A stretch of DNA of 64,000 nucleotides from Tubiluchus corallicola (lineage: Eukaryota > Priapulida > Priapulimorpha > Priapulimorphida > Tubiluchidae): the NCBI GenBank assembly GCA_030141605.1, contig JAQGDQ010000307.1, positions 210,845 to 274,844 of the forward strand, read 5' to 3'. This document shows, one piece after another, positions 1 through 62,293 of this stretch. The translations under genes and the position numbers were made by a program. Below the pieces are notes generated by a model. The model had not been told where the DNA came from. It was given only the letters and a program-made list of their open reading frames with translations, and did no database searches. Position 1 is the first letter of the stretch. Each line of letters starts with the position of its first letter.

Positions 1-1660
1 GCACTATAATGATGTGGCATAAAGGTAACGACGACTGTACATCGACAGCAGGTCTACGTCACGTGTAATAAATTTAAATTAAGCTACGAAATAGTGCCTT
101 TCATTGTCATTCATTATTAATGTCTTCATTTTCAAGTCTCAAAATATTAATTTTACCATACTACAGAGTCAGTAGAAGAAATTTTGTATTTAGCTTCTTT
201 CAGTACAGTTCAGCACTGTGAATTACCATGTTCAGTGTGCTTCATAAATGTTACATCATTTGCAAATTAACTGTCTTACACGGTGATCTTGTTTCCAATT
301 CCTATAACGGTCATAACCCAATAAAAACTGTTATAGTGGCTAAATTTTACAGGTGCGTAATTCACACTCTATGAAGCGTATTGATTTGAATTTCTAACAC
401 GGCATGTAGTTGATCTGAAAAGCCGCGACTGCTTATATCCGGTGCGTGTTATTACAATTAGACAAACTGTTTTCTTCACCTTATAGTTTTTAAGTCTTGT
501 CACACTTTGTTTGGAATTTTTCAAATGAGATTATTAATTATCAGTCTCAAACTTTCCAAGTTAGTACTCATTTTTTTCACAACGCTGCTTATTTAGGTAC
601 GCCCCTCGGAGTTCTAGCTGAGTACTTCCGTTAACTGTGGCTAAATAACTGTGCAGTTTGAAAGGTTGTTCAACCTATGGTGCGACATAAATTATAATGT
701 TTGAAGAACAGAAATAGACAGTGATTATTCATGAAAAAATAAGATCCGTAAGTTAATACTCAATTGTCAAAATTAAATAATTTTGACTTTCCAGGTTTCG
801 TAAAGCATTACGCATAGCTCTAGTACGACTGAGAAAATAAAGCTTTGTAGCCTAGCTAGGTAACATAATACAAAAATGGCCAGTTATCATACTAATGCTA
901 TGTATGTTATATTTTATCTATGTCATAAACAATACAGGTTGCAGTCAAAAAGTAGAAAATATTGAAATTACATGCTAGAATGGCCTCATTAGCTCAGAAT
1001 CGGTTGGATAGGTGACCTGTAAAGTAATATTATGTACACTTCCAGAGCCCAAGTTTGTCTATTTTAGGCTTTTCGTTTCCTTGGATTTTTTGTTTGCAAT
1101 TTTAAATTTCAAATAAAGCCGCCAAATTTGTCAATACAGCTAATACCTAAATAGCCTATACAGGCGATATGTTTTCCATAACCTGCTTAACTGACCCTTC
1201 AATATTACAGGATGTTGTTCCTTTCCAGTCGAGTTTCTTTTTACTACTGTCATTTTAGTGTAAAAAGCAGACATTTTGGCACAGCATTTATTCATTGCTA
1301 AAGCATTTTAACTATCATACACAGCTCGCTTAACAGGATTTAGAAACAACAAATAATCTCAGTAAAGTACTCGTCATTATTTTGCGTTATGGGTGTTTGC
1401 AATGTATAAAATTGTGTTTGGTCATCAAAATCTCAATACCAAACAAATCAGTTGTCCACATGTCGAATAGGTAAATTGTGAAGAGTTGATGAATGCCATA
1501 GTGTCGTTAATCTGGGAATCTGCATTTGTGTATCTGTCTGGTTATGTCTACATGGGTCTTTGTGCGTCTAGACAGTATGGACGTGTAGTCTTAAAACCAG
1601 TACAACTGAGTATAATCTTGAAATAAACAGATTATGTAATAATAAAACAAGTGTACTTAC
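1..1660. other. Non-coding stretch at left edge; no gene recognised
   Basis: AT-rich sequence with no long open frame on either strand. The remaining exons of the class C receptor on the minus strand should lie in this direction, but I could not recognise a cysteine-rich or seven-helix exon here. They are either small and missed or beyond the left edge. A short tRNA-like stretch near 982-1025 (motif TTAGCTCAG) may be a worn SINE head; no convincing B box follows it. Confidence 0.5.
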
Positions 1661-3082
1661 ATGTTGGATTCCAGTTACTCCTAAACCAAAGTTCTGATAA
1701 TTGAAGATGCTGTACCAACCAAACACTTTGTGATTGTCATCAAATTCAAAAGCACTACCGTCATAGTTAAACGCAGCTTGCTTGATACCCTTAAAAATCA
1801 ATGTGTTTCTGTTTGGATGATTTCTTAGGCCATAGCACATGTCAGGTGTCTGGCATGTACGGTTATGGGCTGCAGTTACACCGTGAATAATGGCATCAAA
1901 AGCCTGAATTGTCAGTGTTGAAATCGGATGGGGTTGGAACACGCTGGCTAGGGTTTTATTTGAAGAACACGTAACACCATAAAGACGCGGATGGTCTGGT
2001 AGGTCACATCGAAATTGATCCATCCAGTATCTGGCAAACCATGGATTGCGTTTGTTTGTCTCTGGTTTCAAGGATTGAAAGTATGTGTTGAATGCCGGAA
2101 TGCCTATGGTTTCTGTCCTCACAATAATAGCACCTAGAGCAAGCTGCAGTTCTGGCCTAAGTCCTGAAACCCAGACTTCTGGGCCAATCCATGTAAAAAG
2201 CCCAACTGCATCATTGCGTTCAGCAGCTTGAAGAAACGGACGAGCAAAGTTGACATTAGTGATGATGACAACAGCTCTTGCATTTGTGTAGTTTTTCAGT
2301 TCACGAATAATGTGGTAAATTTGTGTGCGACTAGCGATGAGTGGAAACTCCTGCGTTGTTGCAATGCAGATGTCGTTCTCGATTGCTTTTTTCTGGAATA
2401 AGCGATATCCTGTCCTACCAAATGTATTGTTTGTGTACACAACGGACACGTACTTGAATCCGATGTGGTCTATCAATGATATGAAAACATTTATGAGATC
2501 ATGGTCAGTTGGAGCTGCACTTAGAAGATATGGCAGCTCATCCCTCCTGTCACCCAGATCTTCGCCATAAGTTGGACTAACCTGAGGCTTCTGAACATTC
2601 CTTCCAATGGCCTCAGAAGCATCACCATGAAGAGCACCCACATATGCAACAGCATTGTTTGGCAAAATTTGCGCATATTTTCCGAAACGAAGTGTGCAAG
2701 TTTCGAAATTTACCACCTCATAAACAGCTTTCTGTGTGCTGAAACAGTTATCGAATATTATTGTTCCGATGTCAACGTCAGCCAGTTCTCGTCCAATGTA
2801 AGGATACCGCTGCTTCACCGTGTCCAATGCATAGAGGAAGGATTCTACTGCCTGGAGACCCACCTCGCTTTGTAAGTCACCGCAAGTAAATGGAGTCAAA
2901 CCAGATCCTTGGATGGAGAACACCGCGGGAATGACGAGATCATTGGAGTACACCTCCACGTGAGGATCTTTGTAGTCCAGTTTGGCTTCACATAAAGGAT
3001 AGATTGGAAATTGCGCTGATTGACAGTTTGCACCACAGATAAGAGCTAGAAGCAGGAAAACTAATTTCACTTCTCTAGTCAT
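1661..3082 (-). CDS. Class C GPCR (metabotropic-glutamate-like) ligand-binding domain exon, partial
   Basis: A single open exon of 474 codons encodes a signal peptide (basic MTREVK followed by a hydrophobic run ending ICGANC) and a full periplasmic-binding-protein-like ANF_receptor/Venus-flytrap domain. Recognisable mGluR-type stretches are LVIPAVFSIQG near the N-terminus, CGDLQSEVGLQAVESFLYAL, DIGTIIFDNC and GFKYVSVVYTNNTFGRTG. Sequons NNT, NYT, NKT and NRT suggest N-glycosylation of an extracellular domain. The exon ends after a His codon at a donor GTAAGT (minus strand, 1660-1655), so the cysteine-rich and 7TM exons are missing from this model. An in-frame Met lies 15 bases upstream (3097), and a possible acceptor TTTTACAG ends at 3113, so the 5' UTR may be spliced. 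I chose the Met at 3082 because it gives a standard signal peptide. The ligand cannot be named. Class C membership is well supported; mGluR versus another class C subfamily is not settled. Confidence 0.85.
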
Positions 3083-3488
3083 GTTGTATGGGGACATCCA
3101 TTGGGAAACAACCTGTAAAATTAATTTTTGGATCACGTCAAATACAATAACAGACACCGAAGCAAATTTTACCCTTGTTCAAAAGATTGAATGTGATATA
3201 TGTAAGTAAGTTTATTAAAACAAACACATTACAGTTGAAATACTAAATGACTGTATTTGTATAAAATTACAAATAGTAAAAAAAACAGAATTAAAATTAA
3301 AATACCACAAAGATTTGCTAAACAATATTAATTTTCCACGTATTTTATATAGAAATATATGTTTAAAATAAAAGAATCACATACCCAGAGAAAAACATGA
3401 GCTATGCACGTCAACCGTTAAAAAATGTAACTAAATTTTCCAAAACGTTTAATTTGATTTTCTGTGGTCTTGACATTTAATAATCTAA

Positions 3489-7466: not shown

Positions 7467-8854
7467 ATCATCCCAAATTTTTAAGATCGGCTACTAATCC
7501 TATTAATTATAAATCTAATAAACGTGTATGCATACTTTCTCAAATACAGTTACAGACTTAGGTATAAGAATGGAATGATTACATGATACGTATATTAAAC
7601 GTATCAATTATTTAGCTTTGGTTAAAATAGACAATTAAAAAAATCGAGTGACCGAAGGATTTTGCTAGTAGCTCTGCTAGGTCCTTGAAAAAAATTGCGT
7701 TAATGTAGACACTGTTTAATCGAAATTTCCATTCTATTGATAAACCTTGAACGCTCTAGCAAACGATTAATAATTAATAAAATTAATGTACAGTTAAATT
7801 AGCGACTTCTCTTAAGTTACATGTACATGTATTTTTGCTGAAAAAAATTGAAAAAATAATTGAAATTGATTTACCTTTCGATAATAATTTTCTTGCGCAT
7901 GACTTTGCCAAAAGCAGCAGCCCTAGTCTACATCAAAGTAAAACGAAAAAGTTTTTCTCAAAGTTTAACAAATCCACACGATTTTGTTTTCGTTAAGCAT
8001 GCGGAAATATTAACTTAATTGCGGAACTACTGCAGCCGCAACACTGAATGCTTTATTCACTGCTATTATTTTCATCGGTGATTAAAAGACGCTCATGTAT
8101 AATCTTACAGACTTTTTCACGGGGAGAAGTTAACACAGACTGCGTTCTGTCCCTGCCACAGTAAAGCGACGCTCTCTGCTCCATTTGCTTCAAGCTTGAG
8201 TTCAGTTGGTTTACTCACGTGGTTCTTTGTTGGTTGTTCAACTATTCCATGAACAAGACTCACAGTTTTGCACGAAAATGTTGCACATAACGAAGGAATT
8301 CATTTATCTGTGTAGTTTTTATATAATAACGATGTATTTTATTTCTTAAGAAACATTAAGCATACAAATTTAGTAACCAGCTCAAGCATCCCTTCAACCC
8401 CTTTCTGCTGTTACAACAATAATGGACACGACGCGATAGCGGTTTTCAGCAAAGCTAACATATCCTGCGTACATAAAAGGGGAACCTGATTGAGATAATT
8501 AGACAATAATACTAATAACTGTACCGGTTTTTGTTGGCAATGTGTAACTGTATCAAAAGCGACAATTTTCATCTTAAAACTTGTTGAAAATTTACACACG
8601 TGGGGTTATAAAGGGCATGAAACCATGAACTTGACAAACATACACTTACATCCAAAAATATAGCTACGCTAATCATATTAATGCTCTTGCAGACAGCTTA
8701 AAATGGCATTTACCTTTTTTACAGCCCAATTAGGCACAGTAATTTCAGGTTGAAAATTTATCAAAATTAAAATTAATATAATTAGTTAGAAAGATATTGG
8801 AAATGTTGAACTTGTCAGCTATAAATGATGAACCCTTTGGCTGTCATAATCACC

Positions 8855-8990
8855 GGGGAGCACAGTAGTCTAGTGGCTTATTGTGTATGCCTTGTAAGCA
8901 GAAGGTCTCTGGTTTGAATCCAGGCTGTTCAAACTTTTTCACATTTCCCGTCTTTCAAGTTCGATGTCAAAATTTAATTAATCGTAGATT
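8855..8990 (+). repeat. tRNA-derived SINE, copy 2 of the same family
   Basis: The head GGGGAGCACAGTAGTCTAGT gives an A-box-like region; the B box is GGTTTGAATCC. The body (TTTTTCACATTTCCCG, CTTTCAAGTTCG, TTTAATTAATCG) aligns with copy 1 at 7411-7466. The head differs more than the body between copies, as expected for old copies. Confidence 0.65.
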
Positions 8991-10109
8991 TGCACCATCA
9001 TCAACACATGAATTATCTAAATGTTTTTTTACAAAATGTATTACTGATTTAAAACACGAACGTGTTAAATTTCATCATTTTTGACGATTTTTTATTCATT
9101 TGCTACAAATTAAATAGATAAAAAAATTATTTTTCTAACACTATCATAATTTAAACTTGAGTTTTCATTGACAAGCTGTTACAATACAAATCTGTTACTT
9201 TATATGGGCCAACATATAAAGCGAAATTATTACATAATTTAAAAAGAACAGTAACTCAGCTACAGTGTTAAATAATCAAACTACCTATAACTTAACCAAA
9301 AAAATCATAAGAAATTATAGCGTGACTATTTGTCTTTCTCATAGTTTCCTATCTATTATCGTAAAGAATATAGTGTGCTTTATACAGTGTAATTAATAGA
9401 TTACAGTGATAACATAATTTTTTGGAATAATCAATGATACAATAGGTCCATACAAGCATTAAAAACTGTCATACTTTTAAAGTTCAAAGACAAAAGTTCA
9501 CTAGAACCAATATACTATGTTTTACAAAGAGCTGTGAAACGAGGCCATTATAACATTATTAAAAAGCATCGAACCTTGCAAATGACTTCCTATTTGCAGA
9601 GTTTTCAAAAGTCTCTAAATATATAATTTTGCAATTTACATGTTACGTTCGTTACTGACACTGCCCAACAGGAACCATTCACCTTCACAGTTATTCCTTA
9701 CTATCTGACTAGTAAAAGACTGAAAATTTAATGTATACACTAGAAGTTTTTCTTATTGTAATTATTTGGCCCATTCTAGTCACCTGGCATCAAAGACTGG
9801 AATGTTTTGTTTGAATGGCAAGATTAGTTCCAAGCTCCATAACATAGCTGAAACATTCTAGAAGATTCATATAACAGTTTATAACTTATCAAATTTTAAA
9901 GAATTAATAGTTTTACAAGGTTAAATTTAGTAACAAACAAATTTTGATGTTTTGCTGAATCTGCTTGTGCACCAACTACAATTTCTTACACTGGCCTGAA
10001 TTCTTAAAAAATATGCAATAGTGAAATAGTTGATCAGTTGAGTATCAATGACCTGAGTCAAATGAAGACGTGATAAACTGTGCTAAAAAGTGGGAAGGAA
10101 ACATGCATA

Positions 10110-11010
10110 GACTGTTTAAGCTTGAAAATGTGTGAAAGTCATTAGTCAGGACACACTTGAAGCCATGTGTGAAAATGCCAGTTGTGTGGAAAGATGAGCA
10201 AAAGTGTTTGTGGGAGCTGTGTGAACTGAAGTCATCTGAACACCTTATGAAAACATCTTAAGTGGCTTAAAGGAAAACTGGATGATTGTTTAGACTCAAT
10301 CTCATCTTAATTTACTGTCCAATATATATGTTTTCTTGCCTATAAAAGTTAACAATTGTTCCTTATATTTGAATAATTAGCTTAGAAAGTTAATTAACGG
10401 CAACAGAACACAGCTATTGCTTACGTCAGAAACTAACCACAGTTTGTGCAATGGCAGGCGTCTTCCCTTGAGCGTCAAGCAAATTTGCATAGGTGTTACA
10501 GTATTGTTTAAACGCATGATGTCACGAAAAATGGGTTTTACATCATATGACGTCTGAAACTAACACAGCGGTTCATGATCATGGTAATCACGGTACCGTC
10601 TTCTATATGTCGGCCACGCGCACGTGACAAAAAGGCGCCGCTGCCAATCTTAGTGGATTCACTGAGCCGTGCGTAGCTTTGAAAGTTTAACGAAATTTAA
10701 GTATCCGAGGTAATTATTATTTAATCTAAGCTTTGATTTAAAAGAAACTATTGTAATTTTCAATATTTTAGAGCATTCTTTATTCTGAACTCGTGTTTAC
10801 ACAATCATCCGGTTTTCTTTTAAAAACTAGTAAAGATTCTCGAACCCATTTGAAGAGTGACGATATATTTGGATATGTTTGAAACAAATTGAAGAAATGG
10901 GAAAATATTGGGAGATGTGTGAAATGAGGATGTGAGTGAAGCCATGTGAAGACATTAAAGTGTCAGAAAGTGGGTGAAGCTGTCTGAAGATGTATGAAAA
11001 TATCCCCAAA
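10110..11010 (+). repeat. Degenerate GTGTGAA-rich blocks
   Basis: Two blocks (10110-10260 and 10830-11010) are full of variants of TGTGTGAA and GAAGATGTG, and both contain GAAGCCATGTG. They look like a heavily diverged short-period tandem repeat split by unrelated sequence. Confidence 0.35.
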
Positions 11011-11554: not shown

Positions 11555-14500
11555 TTAAAAGACATCTAATTCGATCATAATGGCCACAGCAAGAAACAAA
11601 ACATAAATAATGAGCAGGTAAATTCCATATGGTCGATTCATTCGAAACTTGATGAGAGGAATAATGATGAATGAAGACAGAACTGAAAAACTTACGGCTC
11701 CTACCAGCACCATATTCATCTTATCATAGTTGATCTGGAAAGAAATATTTTTTCTATATAGTTGGTATGTCAAATGTTTAAAATGTAATTAAGCTAGCGT
11801 GTACATGAAGGCAGACTAATATGCAGTCCTCTGATTATGACTGTATCTTTTCTTTGTTTCTTTTTTTACTAATATTTTATTATTCCGTAATATATTTCTT
11901 GCTTTACACAGCCTAGTCTATGGTAACGCTTTCACGAAAATTCACTTTGGCAATAAAACTCAATTTTCATGGAACAAAAGTATCAAACAAAATATGCTAT
12001 TGTACAGCACATGTGCTGCCATCTCATAGCAAAAACAGAACTGTTTTACAAATGAACAAAACCAATACATTTAAAAGAATGGTTGACACTTTTATGCAAA
12101 TCCGTAATGAAAATAAAACAAGTGCAAAGGCAGCAGTGAGATTTAACAAAAAATAGTGTTAAGATTTCAAAGTCTTCAAGTTATTAAGGTTACTTTCTAT
12201 ATAACAGATCTAAAAAAAGTTGCTCAACTTTATAGCACAAATGAAAAATATCCTTTTTGATATACTCCTACATCAGATTATGCATTGTGCAAGTGTTTTT
12301 GTTTTCATTAATTTTAGTTCTAAAGTTTTAATCTTGATTATGACCTCTGCTAGGGATGTTGATATAAAGCCAATTAATAGTATTTAAATTTTTGTTTTGT
12401 TTTACACCTTTTTGTCTTGGCTGTTACATGTATAACTTACCCTCACTTATGCAAACACCACTGATTTGCTGCCACCTTGCAGCAACAACAGAAACTTCTT
12501 AAAACTATGAAGCAGAATATGAAGTTATATAACTTACGTTAATAATGTTGTTTTCCATTGGTATACAACCTATCAAAAATGGTATGCCAATGCCAAGCAG
12601 AAGATCTAAGGCATGGTTAAAAAAATGAAACCAGTTCTAGATGTATTGCTGTTTTATTCTTTGCAGCTATAATTTAACAGTTATAAACTACCGTTTAAAT
12701 GATGCCCTCTTTTCACTTCAGAGGCATTTCAAAAATATATCTGTAGCCAGTGGGTTTGTTCATGTTATGTAAGAAGTAAGCATGTGTAGTGCAAAAACCT
12801 AAAAATTTGCAGCTGTTGAATTTCCTTCGTCAGACAGGATGCATTGCCAAGCCACGTTAGTTGTCCCATGCGATATTTGAAAAACACTGTACCAGCTTTA
12901 TTCTGTGCTGTATTTTTTACGCATAATTTTCAGGACTTGCACAGACAAACAAAATTAGTTCATCAGGCAAACATTAAAACTCTGCAGTGTGGAAAAAACA
13001 TGTGGCACAATCACATGCATAACATGGAGTAACGTATGGACTACTGTAGCAAATTTAGTAATTTTCAAATGAACAAGTTAGTGATTATCAGTAAAAGATT
13101 TGCTGGAGGAAATGAATGTTTTAAATACAAACATGTTGTGCAGGTTTCCCCGTGATAAGACCAAATAAGAGGCAGCAAGTTTCCTTTACAGATGTATATA
13201 GAACCAAAAGGATACTAAATAATGGTCCTCCGAAACAAGCAGAAATAGCCATGCGAGGAAAGCCCTGCTTGGCCATCAAGCTGTTTGCAACAAAATCCCC
13301 TATGCTGTTTCCCCAGGCTAGAAAGGTTAGTCCTAATATGGAGTTGCTGATATTGATGACTACACCGAATGCTTGAAGAAGACCGACGACTTCATTGGCC
13401 AAAGCAAAAATCCATACGATAGCAACAACAAAGCCAAAGTAAGCAAATGCCTGAAAAATTGTTATTGTTCATTTAGAAGAAATGATTATTACTATAAAAA
13501 GATTTTTTCCATCATTCACTGCCATTCAACTTCTGAGATATCAAAATTATCTTGTTCTTACTGCATTTTTTGTATCAAATTCAGTTTAAATATTTGTATC
13601 AAGGCAATAAATGATTTGTCCAGTGTTCAAACAATTGGAGCATTGGTAATTTCATTCCCAATGTAGTTGGCCAAGCTCATCTATGTGAACAAACTAACAC
13701 TTATTAGTTCCATAATCTTATATTGACAAGTTTTTCCTGACATGTGGATGAACTGTAATTCCAGTTAATGCAAAAAAAAACAGAGCTCTTTGGGTACCTA
13801 CGAGTTTGCAACACGACTACTTCAGCAAATGAAAATAAAACACCACTGTCAAAATCTGTAATACATGTATGATGTATTTTTTCTCTGGTTGCATATTTTG
13901 TGTTTTTTTGGGTTCACCTATCTGAAGCAAACAAAAACCGAAAACAGACAGCAGTTTTTGTTTATTTTCTCGAACAAAAATGCATCAACTTACATTAAAA
14001 TTCGGCAAAACTGATTTCTCACTTTTTTCTGCAAAAGCTGGATCAATTTGTTCTGAGTTTTTTATTGAAAAATAATGTAATTTTGTTGGAATAAAATACA
14101 TTTAATAATTTTGAACAGTCAGGTTTCCCCAAAATATTGTAGGCATTTGATAATTTTCGTTTTTTTATGGTATATACATGCATTAGTGAAATGAAACGGG
14201 CTAGTATGAAAAATTATAAAGCAGCCTATGTCATATCCCTTCTTGACGATACACTTACAGAAGTGCAGGACATTTGGTAACATCTGGCAACTCCACAAAA
14301 ATGTTAAATGTTGGTCTTCGATAGATTAGCAAACTACAATATGACTGCATTGATGGTTGATCATCTTTTCTACAAAGCATTAAATAAAACTCTGAAGAAA
14401 AACCAAAATAACTTCTTTGAAGAGATTAATGAGACACACTCACAGCATGATACTTAGGAATTCTATTCCAACTGCTCGTAAAAGCTACAAGTATTGCAAG

Positions 14501-15870: not shown

Positions 15871-17370
15871 CTGAAGGACAAAATCATTAAGGACAATCCT
15901 TTTCAAGGTGATTCTCATAACAATGTAACAATACAGTATCAAATTTGTCATAGTAACTGATTTTAAAAAAATCTCATAATCACAAACCCTATATACAGCT
16001 TATAATCCAAAGGACCACTGTGTCTTCTGGCAGTAAACACACAAGCAGTATAATATTAAATTATATAATCACAAGCCAATAGGCATATGATTAGTTTATG
16101 TGAAAGGACAACAGGCTTGCTCGTGTTAGCCACGACAACAAATAGTACTAGTTAATATAATGATAAACAAGCTATTATTATTATTATTAGACAATGCATT
16201 CCAGTATATTGCATATTGCAGCAGCATATGTACAAGCAATGTACTGGCTTCTAAAGAATTACGTCACACCTTGAGATTTGAAAAAAATGTAGAGAGATAG
16301 AAATTGGTCGTTATAAATTTTATACATTAATATTTAAGCAAGTACATCACTTTTCCAATTCAGTTCATTTTTTCATAAGCAGTTGCGTGACTTTAGACAT
16401 TATAAAAGTAAGTGTAATGCAGACACTTTTCAGCTAAAGCTATCACTCGGTTATCAGATTTTAAAATAAAGAACGGAGAAGCCGTCATTTTTGAATTGTT
16501 TTTGTGAACTGGGCATTTGTGAATTATTTTTGCATTTGTGCACGAAAAAATGTTTCAGCTTTTTAGTTCCCATTTCTTTTGTTTTCACGGCTTTGGTTTA
16601 CAGTAATTTACACTATGCAACTAAAGTAGCAATTTTGCCTACGTGAAATAATGTAAACCCGTTGAGTAACTAGCATTTTACAGATGGCAGAAATGGCAGT
16701 TTTAAATGGCAAGGTCAAGCAAACATCTTTTGACAAAAAATTTTGTAAGCAGTGATAAAGATTATGTTGCCGTCTAAGCCACTAAGGAATATTCTAAAGA
16801 TGGTAGCAGACAATCACTAAAGTGAATAAGAAGAAACTGTGAAATAAAAAGGTATGAATATCAACCTAGTTAACTTTAAAAGACATAATCTAGCATTATT
16901 GCAACAAGTGGCGCGCAATTTGTAAAGTAAAATAACCAGAATTCATTTTAGCTTGCAATTTATTATATGTTCTTACCTGACGACTTGCTCGAAACTTCAG
17001 ATACTGTACGAGAACGCTGTTCTGTTTCTTCAGCAAATCGCAAGCCTGAAAAAACAACAAAAAGTCCAGATTTTCAAAACATGTTCACAACTGTTTTGAC
17101 CGAAAACAATCGAACTTGCACAACACAGTACTCCACAGAACACATACAGTCGACTCACGGTTGATAGACTCAGTCTCTTAAGTGAGTCAAAAACGCCTGG
17201 TACGGGCCGCTTCTCATCCAGCAATCTGACAGGGCCAGTGATTCCGATAGCAAAAGAAGAACCCTTAAAGGATGCTAAGACAGGTACATCAAAAATGGCT
17301 TAAACTTCTTATATTGAGCTTGTAAGAATAAAAGCACTTAAAGATGAGATAGTGATCAGACATGTACTTG

Positions 17371-17422
<52 letters not shown>

Positions 17423-20400
17423 ATATACATAAAATCTGTCGGTAACTGACTCAAATAACTCTGCATGATTGACTCAATATTTTACCATTACCACTGGAGG
17501 ATGGAGGTTAAGCTGATAAATAGCTTATAAACCTCTACAATTTCCTTTGAGTTCTATAACTGTGTTTTAAAAGAAACAGTGGTACTCCAGGATCATGGAC
17601 TGTGTCGCAAAACATTTTGCTGCCATTGAGGCAGTCTAGGCTCGACCAACTTTTCTGAGTTGTGCTGCCAATATCGATCTGATTGGGACTTAAACAGAGA
17701 AGGGTTAGTGCAATTGACTATATTTGCTGGCAATTTATTCCATTCGTGACATATTTTCCTTCACGTACTTAAAATAAGACATTTGTATGTACCCAAAGAG
17801 CCATGTATGTGCAAGATTTCAAATCATTAAAGAACAATTACTCGTACCTGGTTTTTTGCTAACTTGCTTCCTTTGAGACTCGCTTGTACCCGCACGAGAG
17901 CGACTCGATGACGACAATCCAGTTCTCCTGAAATAGTTTATAATAGCCAGTTACTGTAGAAATCGTAAAATCTAATAGGAATGTGAATATCTATAGTTTG
18001 CTACCTGTTTGAGTAAAAAATTGTTTCGAGGCAACGAGAAGGATATTGACAGTATGTCATGAACTGAGCCAGTACTTTAGAGTGAAGTCTTAAGCTTGAT
18101 ATAGGTGATTAACAATAGCAATAAAAGCCTGTTATCTATTTGCTTTAAGGTTATGTTAGACTGTAAATCATCACATAACAACAGAATTTACATCTACACC
18201 ATTTTTAATATCCCAGAAAAATGAGATTCACACCTGCTTCCAGAGGAAGCCTTTGAACTTGCACGTGACCTTGATACCTCTTCACTGAGTACATTTAACA
18301 AACCAGGCAGAAGTTTTTGGCTGTCTCCTTCATCTTCTTCTTCTGCCACATCTGGAACTTCAGGTGTCATGGCTGGGATAATAGCCAAAGCTTCTCCAAT
18401 TAGTGCTAGTTCTGGAAAAGGAGTTATTATGTTATATCTTGCAATTATTTAAAGTGTTATTGCCCTAGGTCTCATACGACATCACTGCCATTTTGTTATC
18501 TTATGATTTGCAATAAGGAAAATTAGGCACCTATATCCTAAATACATTTTTAGGAACTAGGGAAAAATTACAAAAATTAGAGAACACGAATGCTTAATCT
18601 TTGCTACACGAAATTCCAATAAACAGTGGCAGTGATCTCACTGATTTGACTTCGTAAATCACATAGTTACGGCAACATGGAACAAAAAGAAATGCAGTTG
18701 ACTAGTTTGTCAGATAGAGCTGGTAAACTGTCACTCATCAGAAGTTCACAGCACTTCTTTTAAAATGTACTATAGGGAAAATAAACACTCTACTACAAGT
18801 GATAAAATCCCTGTGGTTCGCACACAAGAAAACTCCAATTTTATGCATCTGAGGTACTGATCAGTTCAACTATGAAAATATTAATATTACCTCGAATTGC
18901 ACTCAGTGTTGGGAATTCACTGAAACTACTCTGTTTTGTACCCTTGTGGAATCCAGCTGTGAGGCTGTCGAAGAGTGAGCTCCGTTGGTGAGATGTGTCT
19001 GTATCAGTTCTGCTTCTACCATGTTCTACTTAGAAAACAAGTTCTCATAGAATAATGCAGTGGAAAAATTATAAAGAAAATGCCATCTTATTATCCTTAA
19101 CACCAACACACTTAATACAACAACTGCCTACTGGAAAACAAATTCATGCTGGTAAAATGAGCTTTTATCAACTAAAAATGTGTTAATGCTCACTACACAT
19201 TCAACTTCACTTTGCACAACGCTTTATTAAAAAAAGAACACTCGAACTGGACCACAGTACCAACAAAGCAAATTAGACCTATAGATCTGATAAGAGAATT
19301 TTTTTATTTCAATAAAGAAATAACAAAATGGTCCTAGCTCATATAATCGGGCAAAAGTAGAAATTCTATATTGTTTTTATGCCATTTTTGTATGTCAAAT
19401 TGATAAGTGAATGGTTGTTTTCGATGTTTTCAGAATTTCACGTATGCTCATGTGCAAAAAAAAGCAACTAGGTTTTTAATCTTTTAACAATCTTTTAAGC
19501 TTCAGCACGACTATTGCTACAACAATGGGTAAAAAGTCTTACCAACTTCATCTTCTGCTTGAGGTTCAGCAAAAGTCACACGACCTTTTGGCTTTTTAGA
19601 CTCAATTGGCACTTAAACCATAAAAAAACAAGTAAAACTGCTCTTATTAAATCCAGAAGTTTAAAATTTCTATCATTTGTCATCTTGTTATATTTTAATT
19701 TACAATAAGAGAAACTAGGTACCTATATCCTAAATATATATTAATACCATGCCAAGCTGTGATGTATCTGTTAGTGAGTAAAAACAAAAAGCAGAATTCT
19801 GGCTAGTACATCCATGTGTCCATCTATAATCTTTGTTTATTTGATATTAAAATTTTTATTTATCACAAAATCATCATTATTACTAAAAACAGAAAAACAA
19901 ATTTTTGTGGTCTCACCTTCGTCTAAATCTGGTCTTAATAAAGGAACCAGTATTTCAAGTTTTTCAATGGTGTCCAGTTCCTTTTCAACTACTACAGATG
20001 GACCAGTTTTTCCTAGAATAAGCAGAAAAATGGTAGACTGACAGGCCTACCATCAATTGCCTCTAATTGCTCCATTATAACTAACTCTCAGAACTGCACG
20101 TGACACAATTCAATTGGAATCCACATACTGTTTCGATTTTTCCAGAGTACTATTTAAATTGAAACTAATTGTCAATAATTTTCTTTTGGTGCTGTGCAAA
20201 TGAATTATGATATTAAAAATAGTACCAGTAATATTAAACATTATTAAGTATTTTTATTATTCATAAGTATTACTAACTCAGAATAAAAGCAAAAGAATGA
20301 GATGTTACTAGGCAAGTAGAAAATCAGATTTAAAGACCGAAATGAACACTGCCTGCCATAAGAAAACCTTAATATGATTTACTGACAAATTAGTTAAAGC

Positions 20401-23400
20401 TATTTCGGCTAAAAATGTCACACACCAAATTTAAATTACAGTGGCCGCCGCTTATTGTGGACACCTAGGGCCAGCAGTGTATGTCCATATTAAGCGGCTG
20501 TCCATATTAAGCGAAGTGACCCATGAAGACCCTTCCCCTTCATTAAAAAAGGCAAAAAACTGTCTGTATCAACTCGTCTCCTGTTGTATTGAAAAAAAGA
20601 AGTCAGACGAGTTTGTTTGGCAGGAAACTTTTCTCTCAACCTTGAACGGAAGGAAGTTATCACAGTTTCGAAGCTCTCAAGGCCACGGCAAACGGCGAAC
20701 TGACTGATGCAATGACTCACACAGGCAGCAGAGCGGGAAGCTCTTTTCAATGACGCGCGCAGGCCGTGGTTGGCACGGCTCGTTCACGTGCCAAGAATGT
20801 TCGCTGTCCATATTAAGCGGCGGTTGTCCATATTAACCGGCGGATTTTATTAGGGGAAAATTCCGTCCCTCGCGAGTTGTCCACAATAACCGGCTGTCCA
20901 CAATAACCGTGTCCATAGTAAGCGGCGGCCACTGTATTACTAAACACATTTTTGTGTAACACTTTGTGTAATACAAATTTAAAAATTGTAAAAATGTAAC
21001 TACACTAAGCATACCTTCTTCTGCAGTTGACGGAACATCTTCTTTAAAAGCCGGGTTGTCATGAGCCAGAGGACTTTCCTTGCCAATGTGTGCATGGGCC
21101 TTGTGTGGAATGCAGCTTAATCTGCGTGCTGCTCCAGGCATCAAACTTAAGCTTTAATTAAGCAATGTTAAAAAGTTTCAATACAGCAGCCAAAGGTAAC
21201 TGGTGTGCGATTCAAAGCATAGAAATAAAATAATGAAAAGGTTATCATGCTGTTACTATAAAAATAAAGAACAAAAATAATTCGTATTGAGTCAATTAAA
21301 TTCTGTCTGTTATTTCTAGTTTTTCTTTTTTTTTCAATTGTTTGGGTCAAAATAAGCCATCTGGTGATGTGAGTAAATCTAGTTAAAAGGCTAGATATCA
21401 AATTGCACTGCAAAGACAAAAACCTTTGAAGAATTTGAGCTAGGGGGAACGCTGTGTCGAAGTAAAAGTCACGCAGAGGCAAAGCTAATAATGCCTGCAG
21501 TCCTTAAAATAATAAGCAAGTGAAAATTGTTGGCAAGCCACTGCCAAAAAATGGCTTGCAGATTATTTATCTCATTAATTGTTTGTTCATAATTAATTAA
21601 TGTTTGTACATACAGCAAGTCAAAAATAAATCAAAATCAAATAAAAACAAATTCTGTTAATGGAAATATGTGAATGATTAACATTTATCTGAAAAGTGCA
21701 AAAAAAGTTACAGTGAAGTTATTCAAGCCAAAAATGTAACTTTTACTGTTAGGTAATAAAATATTCAATATTGTGCCATACCGCTGTGCATAGATACTCC
21801 CACGTGGTGCTATGCTCTGCCTCATCGCAGCACTAGGATGACCTGCATATATGCTTACTCTTGGCCCGTAAACACTTGGACGTGGTGCAAACATGCTCTG
21901 TCGTCTCGCACTGGGGAGTTTTTCTTGTTCCTCTTTTAATCTTTGCTGATACACTATAAAGAAACAAAATATACAAGCAATGCTAAGCATTAAGCACATA
22001 TATATTTGACATGAATTAGACAATAAGTATAAAGTGGTATTTACTACAACACATGTGCGAGAAAAATATAATGATAAAAAATAATACTTCAATGCTTTAA
22101 CTGGATTTATTACATACGACAAAAGTTTTGTATCAAGTTATAGCAAATTCATTGTGACCAGCTAATCTTTTTTTCAATATTTTGGTAGGACAGGAACCCT
22201 TTGTTCATGTTAAGGATAATCCTCTGAGCTAGCAGAGGTGTATTAACCTACTGAAATGTGCAAACCTTTCTCGAGAGGAATATAGCTGGAGGCCATATGG
22301 CAAATGAGCCACCTATAAACAGTTTTCTCTGTGATAACTCACACACTTACTAACCAAGCTTGGCAATGCCTAATTATCTTTACCACTTTTTATTAACATG
22401 TCTGACTGTTAGCTAGAAACTGAGAGGCATTTTCCAATCTAATATAACACTTCACTTCGCCTGATGTTCAGGAATCAGAATGATAGTTCATGGGAGCAGG
22501 AACAGACCATAAAAGTCTTTTGCATTTCAAAATGTGAGGTAGTTGACTATAGAAGAATGAGGCACCTTGGCTGGGTTGTTTTTCATATCACAACATGGCA
22601 ACGTAACAGGGGCGGATTAAGTATTTCGTGGGTCTAAAGCTATCAAGAAATGAAGGGCTTAAACTTACTGGCTGTGCACAACTGCACATCCAATTGTGCT
22701 GTATGGCTGACACTGAAATTTATTCGCATGGAATATTTCAGCACAAAATCGCATGTATTTGATTAAATATTCACTTAAGAATAAACTCATGTGCAGCTCA
22801 CATTGCTATCAAAATTCTGAGACGCTATTAAAAAGTAGAACTGTTCTTGCATTTTATATAGACTTATCAACAACTTTTACTGTTACTCGCAACGAATGGA
22901 AATGATTTCGTTTTTCATGTCTTTACGCCTGGAATAAGGTTAACCAAAAGGCGAGCTGCTGTTCGTCATTCAGAAATGCTGATTCTAAACAACTGGACAA
23001 TAAGAAAGATGCTGCACATGTGCTACTCTTAAAAGTGTCAAATGCTTGTGTCTAAATGAAATGACCTCTGCAGCCAAATAACCTATGTCCAGAACAGACA
23101 GTCCCAAATTGCCTCTGTGGCAAAGCATCCTATGTCTAAATGTGTGGGTCTATAGTGAAAAATGTAATATTTTGTGTACAATATTGACCAATAGCTCCAG
23201 TGTTGACTGGCAATGTACAAAAAAGAAAAACAAATATATTTGTCTCCTGTTTACTAAATAGCATCAAAATTTAGCGCCTCAGGCTATTATAGCCTGCATC
23301 AATTTTCACTTTTTGTCACTGTGTTTTCACCTACTTATATGGCAAGTTGGCAACACATTAACCACAACATCTATAACTAAAGGTCCTAGAACAGGAATGG

Positions 23401-26400
23401 CTCACTTATGCAGTGGGGACATTTTAAGTTCCTGTTCAACACCATTCTAGGCCAAAGGTCACATATGATACAGACTTACAACTTTACAAGTTTTTAAGAG
23501 ATTTTATTCAAGATTTCACAGCAGTGACAGCATATCACAATTACATCCTTAATCCATCACTGCACAGTGCATCAAATCAGCTAATATGATAACACAGTTA
23601 CTACCTATTACGTCTAGTACTAATTGCTATTTATAGGAAAACAAGCTGCCAGTGTTTATGAAATGTACACAAACTTATGGAGATATTTTAGATTATAAAG
23701 TGATATGATTATGGGTAATTTATTTAATTAAATTTTGATGACAATAGAGAATTTAAGTGATATAAATCCTATATAGAGTAATGGAGTTTGTTTTATATAT
23801 AATGTCACATAACTTTATCACATAATGAGTATGTTTTGAGCCTGGGAACTTGCACGAGGCAAAGGAGACTTAGGGCACCAACACACCTTAATCAGGCCTT
23901 GAGTGGGAATCAGGTGTTTTAACAGCTAAATTTTGTTTGTTATTAGTAAACCCCCTACAATAAAGCTTACATAATTTTTGCATAATATGCTAACACAACA
24001 TTATACAATCACACTTACTAAATGGCGTGTATATACATATTCATATTGTATGATAACAACACACATTTAAGTACAACATAAAAGAAACGTGAAACTGAAA
24101 AACTTTGACAAAAAATATTAAAACATGAAAATGCAGACTCTAAGCAAGACACACGTATAAAATCTACTGCATGATCTGCAGTCTTACTGTAATATGGATC
24201 CAAGTTTTTATCTCCTTCGTCTGGCATGTCTCCTGCCATGACGTCAAGAGTCATAACGAGAGCCTTACCGATTCCACCTGCCGTGAAAAAAAACAGAATT
24301 CACTTAATTATTATAAGGTCTTTTCAACAAAAATGGAGAAATCTTCATTCTTGTTAAATAGAGTTTCATGCATTTTCCATTATTGACTGATTTGTGTCTG
24401 TATTGCAATTTAGTTTTTCAGCAAATGCTGCTCCTCACAACGACAGGTCAGCATAATCGAAGCACATGCCTTTTGCACAATCAAATCCAGTGCACCAATA
24501 AATATTAGAGTATATATTCACTAACAAAATCACCAATGTGAATAGAAGCAAAGCCTGCAACCTACTACATGTATGAAGACAATATCATGTAGTTTTCCCT
24601 GTAAAGTGCAATTTCTTTTCGTAATGACTAACAATTGCCAGACTTGTTACGGTCTTGAATACTTACGTAAATCTTTATCTGCTTTCTCCCGAACAACCAA
24701 ACGTTTAAGATGCTTTGCCATGACAACAGCAAACACGTAAAATAAATACATTGCAATGAAACCTGAAACATATGCGCATTAATGATTACATTAACTACAC
24801 TTGTAAAAATAATTTTAAAACAAGAGCAACTTCACATCAACTAAGTGCCAAGAATTGCCAACAAAATCATATTTGACTCTGCTGTTAACAATTCTTCTAA
24901 CAGTTCTCCACATTTTAAACAATAAACTTGTTTCGTGTTTCGATAAAACAGTTATGCCCAAGTTTTTACAAAAGCTGTTGGAAAACTGCCCAATTATATA
25001 ATCATAATATAAGAATAATGCTTATCACTCTCAAATCAGTCTTTTTAAAAATGTAGAATGCTTCTTAAATGCTTTGGTGTCAGTATCTATGTTAGTGGTA
25101 AACTAAGAGCCACTCAAGATGTTATTTAAGGCTACCAACCAAATATAGTGTTGAATGCTCGGTGATTTCATATGCCTTATAATGTATTACACATCTTTCA
25201 ACAGCTGAAACTTTTTATAATAAATATTATTATTTTATAATACAATTTATTATTAAAACAGAAACACCACCACAATGCACTTTATACTGATACAAGATTC
25301 TATTTATTGGAGCTATGTTTAAAACCACCTAAAAAATAACAACACTGTAGTCATTATTGTTTTATTTTTATTTTCAAATCAAATGCCTTATCGCAATAAT
25401 TTCAAGAGAATTTAAGAACCTTATTAATTCTTATGGTCTTACATGAGCAACCATAACATTTTTATTGATTCTACTGTGTATTTCTACTGTGGATGTATGG
25501 CAAGAATGATCTTAATTAAAAACATCTAACACAATCTGAACAAATATTACAATTCATTTCACTGTACAATGTATATACAATACAAAGACATTTAATTACT
25601 ACCACTATTTCTGTTACCTGCTGACTGCCAAACATCAATTCGACCTACGAACAATACGGTCCATGTCCAGTATATTGCAATCAAATAAAATGTCAAGTCT
25701 CGCATGAGAGGTCTTTGAGCCAGGTAAAATGGCTTCAACACAGCTATTGTTCCAGCAACAACAGCAGTGACGAACATTGCAGCACCTAAAAATGAAGAAA
25801 GTAGAGCCTCAGCGAGAAAATTAATTAACTTTCCGGCTGAAGCTAAGTGTCACTAGTGTTTAAATTTTTTCTAACCAACCACCTATAATTTTAGATTTTT
25901 TTCAAAAAAATTATTTCAGTAAATTGACAAAATTATACTGATTAAAAAATTGATGTAAATTTTTGCCAAGCACCTTTTACGTTAGCCTTCTAGTTAGCAT
26001 ACCACATTCTCTTTAAAAAAATTAACAGAAGTTTTAATAGCTACATTTGCATAGATTCTCTATATTAGTTGATTTCGTCAGACAGCCAAAATTTTTGCTG
26101 ATTCTACTGCATTCACTCACATTTCTTAATGTCTAAGTCTGTAACTGAAAAAAACTTTTGTAACCAAAATCAACTCAACAATTCGCTTAAAAAATCTGTG
26201 TTTGCGTGTGCTCAAAATAAAATGTTCAATTCATCATGTAAAATCATTTGTGAGGATACTACTAGATAACATCATTTGTTTGATTTATTTTTAGTATGCC
26301 AAGAGAAAGTGACGTCAGCCATCATTAGCTGTAAATTTGATCTTTCAATTAGAAACAAACCACAGAGGGTGAAATTCAAATAGCCGGAACAAAAATTATT

Positions 26401-29400
26401 AAATGCATAAACAATTATTACACATTATTATGTAAATCACAGCTGGTGATTAGTGACCAGTACTGTAAAGACCAATAGTCTCATCTACATTAGCTGCATT
26501 AGACTGCAACAAGCACCAACATGGCAATTCACCACTTGATAAGGATAAATCTTACCAAATAAGGATCCAATTGCCATGCCTGGATCTTCTTCTGAAGCAC
26601 TAATGGCCGCTATGGCTGAAAATATGTCAGGCGCACCATTTCCAAAAGCCAAGAACGTCACACCGTAAGAATTTATTAAGGTCCACATTAAAATAGTAGC
26701 TGGGATAATAAAACCAATTTCTCACGAATTCAAAAAGAAAATTAATGGATTCAAAACATGAAAATATCTGTCGCAACAATGAGAAAATTCAAGAATGTTA
26801 TTGTTTACTAAAACAGAAGAGCAACACAAGGATTGTTAGCTCAGCATCACAATTTAATTTTATTCAGAACTTAGTCCAAGGTGAACTTAACAAATATTCA
26901 AGTATAACAAAATTGAAGGCATGTTCACCATGCACCTGGCCAGCAATGCAACCATCAAAGTCACTACCAAAGACAGAAAATAAATAAAACTGGTTCTTTG
27001 TGATGGTAACGCATATTAAGCAATGCTCTATTAAAATGAGTATTCCTCTTTAGTTCTTTAAATTCTGTAGTTGGGTTATGTTTTAAAGAAAATTAGCAAT
27101 ATTTTCAAACTCCAATTCGCAGTATTAAATTTTATAGCTACTTAGTTATCACTAATTGACTTAAAACTTGCGGCAAAAGGATATAGCAACATTCTGACTC
27201 AGATTCATTGTGTCAGAAATAACAGCTAAACATGGACAAAAACTGAAAAAACAAATAAACAATACTGATTAGTCTAATTCATTAATTTTGAACATAGAAG
27301 CTGAAAGGCATTTATGGCTAGAATGTCTAAAGAGTTGCTCGGCATCACAAGTACATGGCTCCGTAGTACAGCATGCACATTTTGAATATACGGCTAACAG
27401 TTCAAATACACATTTGATTCAAAATTTTTATCATTTCGTTTCATTTTCCTCAAGGTACTACATGAAAAGCTCATTAACTTTTTCACTAACTATAATAGGT
27501 TCTGGTCATCATTTAACTTTAACAGTTAAATGATTTTTATTTAATAAACAATTTCACTAATAAATAACAATAATTTTATTGTACTGAAATGTGCTACAAT
27601 TAACTGTAAGTCATAGTCTGCATGTGTGAACACACTATTTAGTCAGAGTTCCCATGATCCCCTGATTCCCCTGTTTGACCGAAAACCAAAAATTTTTGTC
27701 ATCCAAATTTTGAGCAGAAAGATTTCCACATAGACTTCCAAATGATCACATGTGCCAAATGCTGAGGTTTACAGCCACATTCAACAATTTTGCAATTCCA
27801 ACCTGTGACCTTCGAGCCCAGGATTTTTGCAGACCGTTGCTTAAAAATTGTCATCCACCACCTAACACCGATACCTGACACAATCTAGAACAAAACCTGC
27901 CTCTACACAGGACAAGCCTGCCCTTATGACACTAAAGTTGCAATTCTTTGAAGTACTCAATACTGGAGGAAAACACTGTTCCAGGAAGGGGAATTTGTTG
28001 ACTTGTCAGTAAGTAATGGATCACTCTAATTCTTCACATTGAGTTGACTTGGGTCTTCCCCCAACCCCATAGCTGCTGGGCAGCTGTTGATGTTTTTACC
28101 TATTTGCCACTGTTCTGGATATACTCTTATGATGATCTTTGACCATGACTGTTTAACTAATGCTTTCTCGCACCAAAAAACTCAATGCTTTCTAACTAGC
28201 TTAACTCAGACTGTAGACAGAGACTAAAGACGTGACAGTTTAAGGCATTCAGGTTGCCTGAGCCAGGGGACTTAAATGAAGTACAATATGCAACACTACC
28301 TAAAGTTATGTCTTACAAGTATAGATAACATAAAACACATAATAGTAGTAGAATAATAAAAAAATGATTAATCTTAAAATTAAAGCATGATTTTAGACAC
28401 ACTATATATTATTATTCATAAACACTTACTATTCATCAGCAGTGATTCCCAAAGCCATAAATAATATAATCAGCAAAATGACCTGAAAATATATAAAAAA
28501 CATCTGGGTGAACTAACTGCTAATAGCTGCTGCATCTATATAACATCTACTTCTGTGACATCCATGAGACAGGGGATAATAAGCAAGCAACAGCATGTTC
28601 ATATTTGTTTAGATATAGATCGCACTCTCAATAACAGCATTATTTTTTTATGTTGGAGTATCATTCTCCTTTATGCGTAATCTCAAATACTGAGCACTGC
28701 TTACCAACTAGAAAAAAGTTGTGCAAAAAACATGGACAATCAAGATAAACACAGACAAGACCAATGTAACATCACAATCACTGTATCTAAGACAAAAATT
28801 GCAAATTTAAACAAATTTATTTTCAGCAAATGCAGAAAACAGATTTCAAGTAAAATATGAAAAATATATGAAAATGTGCATGAAAATGTACTTTGGATAT
28901 TAATGCCAAGAAGCAGGTCTAGATGCAGATAATAAGATTAAACTAAGTCGTCGTAGCGGACAGACGTGGATGGACAGAAGGAAATTATTTTAATTACTCT
29001 AAATTTAAATTTACATTGTATTTTCATCATACTTGTTTCAACTTTTGTATAGTGTTGCCATCTTCAGGCATAATTGTTAAAATTGTTAAACCTTTCTCTC
29101 ACTGTTTTAAATTTCATTGGCTTCTACAGCCGTCATGCATGCGTAATTTCTAAACCTGTTTTCACACCTGAATTGATTTGGTCACTTGTTTATAGCCTTT
29201 CGACATGACACTACTTCACTGATATGTCAACACTACTTCCGAATAAAATCTTGAAACTAATTTTTTTTTTTTTTGGTTTCTTCGAGCCAATGTCTAAATG
29301 CATGAATTTATAACCAACTGCATTGCTGCAGTAGACAAAGAACAGCAAAGCAGTACTTACCAATAATGTCATAATAAGACCTAGTTGATCCTGATAGTCA

Positions 29401-40750: not shown

Positions 40751-41723
40751 GTGAGGATGACTGTCATTGCATTAGAATAACTTTGTGCAATGGTAGCTTA
40801 GTAACATTGTCCTTACATTTCTCTTAAAAAACTTAACAATCTACAATTATGAATGACGAATCTCAGAATTACACAGTTTCAATTTTCAAAATCATGATTT
40901 TTGGTGATTTCGTGTGATGGCATGTTTTTAATTTCAAGAAAGTCGAAGTAGAGAAGTAATTTTAAAATGGCACTGGCAATAGGTATACCAGACTATACCC
41001 TATAGCTGAATGAAATATCATTCGCTGAATATTAAACCACAAAACAGCAGTTTAAAATGTTTAATAAAGTCCACATTGAGATATACAAGAAAGTGCAAAA
41101 GGAAAAATTGGTTATTTACATAGAAAAAGTAACAAGAATTGCTTAAATTTAACACAGTTATCAATATAAAGTTGATGCTGCTTTTTGCTCCAATCTCCAT
41201 CACACAAGTAATTATTAGAAATTATATATGTGAAGCATTAGCTACAATTCATGCTGTGTTGATGATAACTTGTCTTTTAATCTTTCTGGAAGCTTTAGGA
41301 ATCTACATATTTAACATTCTTCCTTTACTTTGCATTGGTGATATTTTGTCACTTGTAAAATGGAATTATTTTGAGTTCTACAACAACTGCTGAGTTGTCA
41401 GCTAGCAGAAAGGTGTCTACACTTAATGCTTTGTGGATTAGGTCCAGGGTTGTTGTTGTTCGTTCTTCCATTCGATGAATCTATGCAGTACTGCGATTAG
41501 TTTGAGACAACATATGTCAATGTAAGGCAATGCTCCAATTATAGTAAGAATTCGTAAAGGAACCTTTTATTAAACTTACACTTTGAATGTGAATTAGTTA
41601 GGCTAATTTGGGTATTAGTGTAGATGCTTTTGTTAAAACCTCTACAATATTTACAATTCTTCAAACCTTTAGGGGTTTTACATTTATACTTTATGACCAG
41701 GTTGATTCCAGTATAGGTGCAAG

Positions 41724-59600: not shown

Positions 59601-62293
59601 ATGCCATTCCCATTATCATGGGCGCTAATATTGGCACCTCTTTGACGAATACCATTGTTTCACTGGCTCAGTCATCAGAAAGAAATGAGTTTCGTCGAGC
59701 ATTTGGAGGAGCAACCGTACACGATATGTTCAACTGGTTATCTGTGGTGATATTATTGCCCCTAGAAGCAACAACAGGTTACATAAATTATTTTTTAATT
59801 TAGTACATAATTTCGTGCTTTCTTTATTGAACATTATTTAGTTGGTGTGTTTTCTATATGATGCAATTTTCAAACTATATTTTCTTCTAGGATACTTGTA
59901 CTGTCTGACCGAATGGCTGACACGTAACGTCAACTTTAGTGCACAACAAGGATTGAATAGAGAATTCTTGACAGTCATTACAAAGCCATTTACAAAACTT
60001 GTTATTCAGGTGAGTGACAATTTCTTGTATCATAATAGTATTTTTTAGAGTCATGAACTCGTTTTCATGCATTGGCTTCTTTGAATTCTTAACTGGACAA
60101 CAGTTTTGCAGCAGCTTCATTAAATACTGTAAACTGAAAAAATGTGCGAGCTAAATTGTTGCGAATTGATCTTCGAATATTTGATTGCGAAGTAAAGTTT
60201 TGGGCACGCACTACTCCAAGCAAGGTTAAAGGTGGAAAAATTTATGGCTTCATTTTTTCATAATCATTGATATGAGTTGCTCATTAGTAGGACTACACGT
60301 TATAGTAAAACACATTGTCAAACAATGCACCATGTTGATAATATTGTCTATATTTAGCAGCATATTCAAGAATTTAACACATTTATCAGCACCAGGAAAT
60401 TGTGCTTGGAAATATATACATTCAGACGTCCTTGCAAAATTTGCAAGCATCTCCAGCGACTTATTGTTAAGGATTTACATGAAAGAATGATTCCAGCATA
60501 AGCCTAATTTTGATATTTATTTGCTGAGTTTTTTGTTTGAATCGTAATCAGTGTTATTAATATAGTAATTTGCCATCTTTCGATTTTTGCTCTTACAAGC
60601 ATAAGCAAAACGTTTGTGGAAGCTGTAAAAAAATTTGTCCGCTTGTTATAGCTAGCTGTTAATTAAGTTTCTAAGGTAATACTATATGTAATTACCAGAA
60701 ACTTTATAGAAATTATGTAGTGACTTTTACTATTGATGTTTGATAAACCTTTCTTTCTTTTACAGTTGGATAAGAAGGTTATAACTGAAATAGCCCTAGG
60801 TGTCCCTGGTGCTGCTGACAAATCTCTCATTAAAACTTATTGTGAGTATGACAAGACAATGGAATTTGTCAACAAAAGCTTGGAATCAAACCTTACAGAG
60901 TATACCTCAGAGTTAGTGGAGGTTAAAAAAGGCATCAATGATTCTTGTAAGTTAACGTATTACATTCATGAATTGTTATTACTATTAATACTGTTTTTCT
61001 AAATTAGAAAGGGGGATTTTAAAACATGTTGCAACATACTTTTTATTAAATTTAAAATGTTCACGCCAGCTGGTAAAGGTGTTCTAGTGAGCACCAAACA
61101 ACATCACTGACTCCACAAAATCAATTATACAATTAATTTTATTGACAAGATAAAGCAATTTATACTTTGCTTGGTTAGTGAAGTGCATGCTACGAATACT
61201 GTTTTTTTCGAACTTTACGTATTGTTATCTTAATTTGTTTAAAAAAAAATGATATATTTTATTTGTTGCAGGTTCTTTTTTGTTTTATAACACTGGACTG
61301 AATGATACAGTTGTTGGAATTGTGCTTCTTGCAATGTCCCTGGTGATGCTTTGTTCGTGTTTAATACTCATGGTTAAAGTGCTTCACTCACTGTTGCGGG
61401 GACAGATTGCTGTCGTCATCAAGAAAACGATAAACTCCGACTTTCCTGGAGCACTGTCTTTTCTAACTGGTTACTTTGCTATTCTCGTTGGTGCTGGCAT
61501 GACCATACTAGTGCAAAGCAGTTCGGTCTTCACGTCAGCTATGACACCCTTGGTCGGAATTGGAGTAATTAGTCTAGACAGGATGTTTCCGCTGACCCTT
61601 GGGGCCAACATTGGCACGACAGTAACCGGCATCTTGGCAGCACTGGCCAGTAGTGGCAGGAGTTTTCAAAGTGCTATACAAATTGCCCTTTGCCATTTAT
61701 TCTTTAACATTTCTGGCATATTGATCTTCTACCCAATTCCTCCAATGCGGAAAGTTCCCATAGGCTTAGCCAAATTATTAGGGAACACAACAGCCAAATA
61801 TCGATGGTTTGCTGTCCTCTATGTATTGGTGATGTTTGTTGTTCTTCCAGGTGGCATCTTTGGTCTCAGTTTGGCAGGACCTATAGTTCTGCTTGCAGTA
61901 TCTGTTCCCCTCGCCACGCTTCTGTTATTTATTGTCATTGTAAATGCCATGCAGAGAAAAGCCCCTGGCCTGCTTCCAGTTCCACTAAGAACATGGGATA
62001 CGTTACCATTATGGATGCATTCACTGCAGCCGTTGGATTCCTTGATTACTAAGCTTGCTTGCTGTGCTTGCTGCAGAAGGCTGACTACCCAATCTCATCC
62101 CAAAATCGTGCTACCACGCAAAGACACGCCCACTAGAGCATTGCTCAGTCCAAGTTCTAGTGCAAATTCAAGTGCTACATCAAGTCGTGCTTCCAGTCAG
62201 TATCCCAGTCGAACCAGTAGTCATGTGAATTTACCTTACAATTTTTCAGCTACAAGGTTAGGTTCCAAACTTGAAACAATCAGTAGTTTATAG
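56618..62293 (+). CDS. SLC34A: Type II Na+-coupled phosphate cotransporter (SLC34 family), complete gene
   Basis: Imports inorganic phosphate with Na+ at the plasma membrane. Eight exons: 56618-56710, 56831-57023, 57479-57587, 57981-58147, 59586-59777, 59891-60009, 60766-60946, 61272-62293 (stop TAG). All phases close, giving 691 aa, the usual length of vertebrate SLC34. Two inverted repeat halves each carry a QSSS motif: [14 protein letters not shown] (171-174) and [15 protein letters not shown] (433-436). The halves also carry [12 protein letters not shown] and [23 protein letters not shown] (Gly228, Ala230, Asp234) covers the site that separates electrogenic from electroneutral members; the Asp is kept. 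The extracellular loop before residue 352 has sequons NKS, NLT and NDS and cysteines TYC and DSC that could form the family disulfide. The C-terminus has a Cys cluster (ACCACCRR), a Ser-rich tail and a terminal SSL that fits a class I PDZ ligand. SLC34A1/2/3 cannot be assigned, since those split in vertebrates. Confidence 0.96.
58984..59103. repeat. 60-bp tandem duplication in SLC34 intron 4
   Basis: Two 60-bp units, 58984-59043 and 59044-59103, begin AGTTAAAGTACCAAGTCAAT and AGTTAAGGTACTGAGTCAAT and stay aligned without gaps, with only a few substitutions. A third start (AGTTAAA) follows at 59104. Confidence 0.92.

Follow-up and report, generated by a model that had tools for sequence, protein, structure and literature searches.

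NCLX plays a key part in exporting Ca2+ from mitochondria; which ion it couples to (Na+ or H+) is debated, as is the role of the loop between TM5 and TM6. In mammals this loop has been described as large and unstructured, with protease mapping assigning it to the intermembrane space (PMC12571890); a 2026 preprint likewise describes a flexible loop between TM5 and the helical elements that follow (PMC12874050). S258 of human NCLX is a reported PKA site, which can override the inhibition caused by depolarisation (PMC8699148). For the exchangers NCX1 and NCX3 (SLC8A), cassette exons are used in the cytoplasmic loop (PMC9820601). The locus described here is comparable with NCX1 and NCX3 only in the way it may work, in that a large loop, encoded partly by small skippable exons, lies between the exchanger halves; the NCX loops hold the folded Ca2+-binding domains CBD1 and CBD2, whereas neither a Pfam domain nor a credible PDB relative was found for the present loop.

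The DNA analysed here (the window) is a stretch of 64,000 nucleotides from Tubiluchus corallicola, and it carries a complete predicted NCLX-type gene of 22 exons in one frame, with 937 codons plus stop (Table 1). In a PDB search, the predicted protein matched rat NCLX (PDB 9ps1, 585 residues) with an E value of 2.1e-108 and about 40% identity, and the alignment fell into two blocks, query 91-279 with rat 59-247 and query 630-936 with rat 273-579. NCLX ranked first (E 2e-108), followed by NCX_Mj (2.7e-8) and NCX1 (2e-4). Pfam recognised Na_Ca_ex alone, with one match at each alpha-repeat region (GNGAPD and GNSIGD motifs), and no Calx-beta (CBD1/CBD2) domain. All ten rat residues that were checked (F111, L114, N149, P152, D153, V441, N467, S468, D471 and N498) were identical in the window protein, and several of them are Ca2+-site or gate residues according to the structure paper (PMC12571890). 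Judged by its sequence, the gene is NCLX (SLC8B1 family), and the match to rat NCLX on either side of the loop agrees with the original prediction that both membrane halves are NCLX-like. Besides these halves, the alpha-repeat motifs and the Ca2+-site residues, mammalian NCLX (PDB 9ps1, 9z4i) shares with the window protein an N-terminal segment that contains Cys and the conserved stretch that closes the linker ahead of TM6. The difference lies in the linker itself, which is short in the mammalian protein of about 585 residues and is longer by 342 residues in the window gene.

Table 1. Predicted features of the window NCLX gene; positions are those of the window, in the direction of transcription.
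Feature	Position	Strand	Description
NCLX (SLC8B1-type) gene	30204-11555	-	Start codon at 30204, stop ends at 11555; Pfam Na_Ca_ex twice
Exons 1-7	30204-24667	-	N-terminal part, TM1-TM5, first alpha-repeat (NVAGVTFLAFGNGAPD); gene model and rat match
Exon 1	30204-29962	-	
Exon 2	29519-29361	-	
Exon 3	28482-28430	-	
Exon 4	27242-27185	-	
Intron 4	27184-26665	-	AT-AC ends, U12-type donor ATATCCTTTT; sole borders restoring NVAGVTFLAFGNG
Exon 5	26664-26556	-	
Exon 6	25785-25618	-	
Exon 7	24762-24667	-	
Loop exon 8	24277-24188	-	Phase 1-1; RGIGKALVMTLDVMAGDMPDEGDKNLDPYY; counterpart inside C1621 exon 7
Loop exon 9	21953-21782	-	Phase 1-2; YQQRLKEEQEKL, then R-x-S cluster RQSM, RPSV, RVSI, RQSI, RGSI
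Loop exon 10	21151-21015	-	Phase 2-1; R-x-S sites RLSL, RLSC; DNPAF island common with C246
Loop exon 11	20012-19917	-	Phase 1-1; DTIEKLEILVPLLRP island with relatives in both paralogs
Loop exon 12	19611-19543	-	Phase 1-1; RVTFAEP, RVxF-like
Loop exon 13	19025-18891	-	Phase 1-1; Ser-rich segment
Loop exon 14	18411-18234	-	Phase 1-2; ELALIGEALAIIPAMTPEVPD island, best conserved loop part
Loop exon 15	17927-17848	-	Phase 2-1; Ser/Arg-rich segment
Loop exon 16	17045-16977	-	Phase 1-1; LRFAEETEQRSRTVSEVSSKSS
Exons 17-22	15870-11555	-	Conserved linker end, membrane helices, second alpha-repeat (LTFLAWGNSIGD); gene model and rat match
Exon 17	15870-15704	-	
Exon 18	15140-15005	-	
Exon 19	14559-14444	-	
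Exon 20	13450-13216	-	
Exon 21	12605-12538	-	
Exon 22	11734-11555	-	

In the splice-rule gene model, exon phases agreed at 21 of 21 junctions; one intron has AT-AC ends, and every other intron is bordered by GT and AG. The gene is apparently intact. An open stretch at 17225-17159 was dropped as an exon because of misfitting phases, and an exon 5 acceptor at 26699 gave way to the AT-AC borders, with which NVAGVTFLAFGNG is restored. At the position of this intron 4, C1621, a paralog described below, has a U12-type intron with GT-AG ends (GTATCCTTT donor and TTCTTTAAC branch-like motif), and a second paralog, C246, has no intron, which suggests a subtype switch and a loss among the NCLX paralogs. 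A literature search found no paper on a U12-type intron in an NCLX gene. The predicted N terminus is basic and then hydrophobic (MATYIPRTYRRQKRFLQMCVMTVAFVGF), a pattern compatible with mitochondrial targeting, and we infer a mitochondrial localisation for the protein. Intron 10 contains a 500-base element (about 20437-20937) with terminal inverted repeats CAGTGGCCGCCGCTTA...TAAGCGGCGGCCACTG, of which at least 39 further copies with 97-99% identity were found in the genome; by these sequence features it is a young, high-copy non-autonomous DNA transposon. Elsewhere in the window, a receptor ligand-binding region (1571-3178, minus strand; ANF_receptor, E 1.4e-28) is probably part of a receptor gene, and a Na+/Pi cotransporter exon with a Ser-rich C-terminal tail (PF02690, E 1.7e-11) is located at 61253-62290 on the plus strand.

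The extra sequence separates TM5 from the conserved part that comes next. Here the original prediction had placed ten exons encoding about 380 hydrophilic residues, for a protein of about 970. That extra exons of the NCLX gene exist between the membrane halves was borne out, since they are open in the gene frame, are bounded by AG and GT and agree in phase at all ten loop junctions; the figures, however, need revision, as we found nine exons in 24277-16977 (exons 8-16) encoding 342 residues (296-637), in a protein of 937 residues. The loop is rich in Ser (13.2%) and Glu (9.6%), as had been noted, and contains 7.9% Arg. G+C content was 46% in the loop exons and 34% in the loop introns; nevertheless, composition alone is weak support for the exons, because single exons reached only the 45th-94th G+C percentile among 670 decoy open AG..GT intervals taken from the loop introns. 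The strong evidence for them comes from two paralogous loci, where related exons occupy this same position.

These two further NCLX genes, C246 and C1621, were found by searching the same genome with the window protein, and were modelled with the same splice rules as the window gene, guided by similarity. The C246 model has no exon 1 and no counterparts of exons 3 and 8, and it includes several weak splice borders. A further locus, C875, holds a second copy of the C1621 3′ end alone and stops at 41643. One intron of C246 (L029, about 8700-10400) contains, as seen by eye, open frames resembling a LINE-type endonuclease/reverse transcriptase. Six other contigs (C402, C1716, C1761, C20, C797 and C951) carry single-frame Na_Ca_ex genes of about 320-360 codons with one or both repeats; they resemble bacterial or archaeal genes, and these contigs may derive from symbionts. 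Genome searches for COX1, innexin and connexin found no match, those for innexin and connexin lacking a working control, and 66 matches to zinc-finger exons of nuclear receptors speak against a sponge.

Between the TM5 exon and the exon 17 counterpart, the loop measures about 230 residues in C246 and about 350 (at least 354) in C1621, the latter being a minimum since the long intron before the exon 17 counterpart could contain more exons. In their membrane parts the three genes are 40-42% identical to rat NCLX and 52-61% to one another. Compared with the window loop, the two paralog loops show 26-27% identity (26-28% among the loops overall), versus 50-64% for the membrane halves. Local alignment of the loops scored 78 for window-C1621, 58 for window-C246 and 121 for C1621-C246, compared with shuffle means of 40-43, and the observed score was reached by 0, 7 and 0 of 500 shuffles, respectively. 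The similarity is concentrated in islands, namely YQQRL..E (exon 9), DNPAF (exon 10, C246), DTIEKLEILVPLLRP (exon 11) and ELALIGEALAIIPAMTPEVPD (exon 14), the last with 61.9% identity to C1621 over 21 residues (tblastn, E 0.008). Thus, the paralogs share with the window gene an enlarged loop at the same place, these islands and symmetric phase-1 loop exons. They differ in a His-rich stretch (HHHHHHQHHYHH and HHHHHHYHH) that the exon 9 counterparts of both carry and the window gene lacks; it lies near the position that the R-x-S cluster occupies in the window loop and could bind metal ions. Substitutions were also observed at the transport site, GNGAAD and an Asp at rat N498 in C246, and GNCAPD and WANSIGD in C1621, and the ion selectivity of these two exchangers may differ.

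The original prediction also held that the loop looks regulatory. Both the loop composition and the presence of kinase-type motifs are consistent with such a putative role. R-x-S occurs nine times in the window loop against 3.6 expected (p 0.0025), and R-x-S followed by a hydrophobic residue occurs eight times against 1.2 expected, a count that none of 2000 shuffles reached. Seven of the R-x-S sites, those listed for exons 9 and 10 in Table 1, begin within 51 residues (343-393). An RVxF-like PP1-docking motif in exon 12 (GRVTFAEPQAEDE) is within chance (p 0.18). In C1621, [RK][RK]x[ST] is enriched in the loop (5 versus 0.5 expected), and no enrichment of kinase-type motifs was found in the C246 loop. 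The segment is most likely disordered and regulatory, and we regard it as reasonably probable that the 342 residues by which nine small exons enlarge the TM5-TM6 linker of this intact NCLX form a probably disordered regulatory segment under phosphorylation control. The loop would lie on the intermembrane-space side, as in mammals, and kinases would target its R-x-S cluster (exons 9-10); the hydrophobic islands conserved in exons 11 and 14 would contact the gate domain or a partner and so tune the transport cycle, and exon skipping could change the loop length with the frame intact. Because the paralogs do not share the R-x-S cluster, C246 being unenriched and both having a His-rich stretch in its stead, kinase control is perhaps specific to the window gene or absent, and cytosolic kinases may not readily reach the intermembrane space, which also counts against it.

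Other readings of the loop were weighed against this one. That its exons are intronic frames open by chance, or another gene nested within NCLX, is highly improbable: short open AG..GT intervals are indeed common, as the 670 decoys from the loop introns illustrate, and exons 13, 15 and 16 have no clear match in the paralogs, but the agreement of phases at every loop junction and the related exons at the same position in both paralogs argue against it. So does the failure of the loop to match elsewhere in the genome, where no source gene for it was found; its DNA matched only itself and repeats, and the assembly contained no second haplotype of it. A largely neutral, spacer-like disordered insertion with little regulatory function, tolerated because the linker was already flexible, seems unlikely to us. 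The low identity of the paralog loops, their different composition (R-x-S cluster versus His-rich) and the lack of a Pfam or PDB match all fit such a spacer, whereas neutral filler would not be expected to hold conserved islands (exons 11 and 14) or a significant R-x-S cluster.

We consider it similarly improbable, on balance, that the loop exons are optional cassettes and that the main product is an NCLX of about 595 residues, with long forms minor or tissue-specific. When exon 7 is joined straight to exon 17, the frame is indeed kept and the product has 595 residues, about the length of human NCLX (584), and in-frame skipping is possible for exons 8, 11, 12, 13 and 16 singly and for the pairs 9+10 and 14+15. 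The modelled loop exons of C246 and C1621 are all phase 1-1, and NCX1 and NCX3 offer a precedent (PMC9820601). However, phase symmetry allows skipping without proving it, splice-site quality appears equal for loop exons and membrane exons, and conservation of the islands implies at least occasional translation of the loop. A combined scheme, in which symmetric cassettes and phosphorylation switch the window NCLX between a short form resembling the vertebrate exporter and a long, regulated form, and the sister paralogs rely instead on a loop that is His-rich and possibly senses metal, is more doubtful still. The phosphorylation-controlled regulatory segment is the reading that we prefer.

The enlargement is not private to the window gene, because the loops of C246 and C1621 are enlarged at the same place; with sister genes so similar in this respect, it is therefore an established part of the protein and not a sequence error. 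The three genes look like duplicates within the lineage of this animal, and because every NCLX gene found carries the loop, it is probably older than their split, an order judged from identities and not from a rooted tree. In our proposal, the loop would have arisen before the genes separated and have grown by small exons added at phase-1 introns. It is absent from rat NCLX; the NCLX comparison outside this genome covered mammalian PDB sequences only, and a literature search found no paper on invertebrate NCLX loops. The description of the loop as a lineage-specific regulatory domain hence is not supported as worded: all three NCLX genes of the genome share the enlargement and the outside comparison is confined to mammals. 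Nor is a folded unit evident, given the low and patchy conservation and the lack of Pfam and PDB matches. What appears to be new here is a real enlargement of a known protein, common to sister genes, with a function that we infer. With its enlarged and diverged loops, such a natural NCLX family would permit a direct test of loop function, by deletion or by swaps between paralogs.
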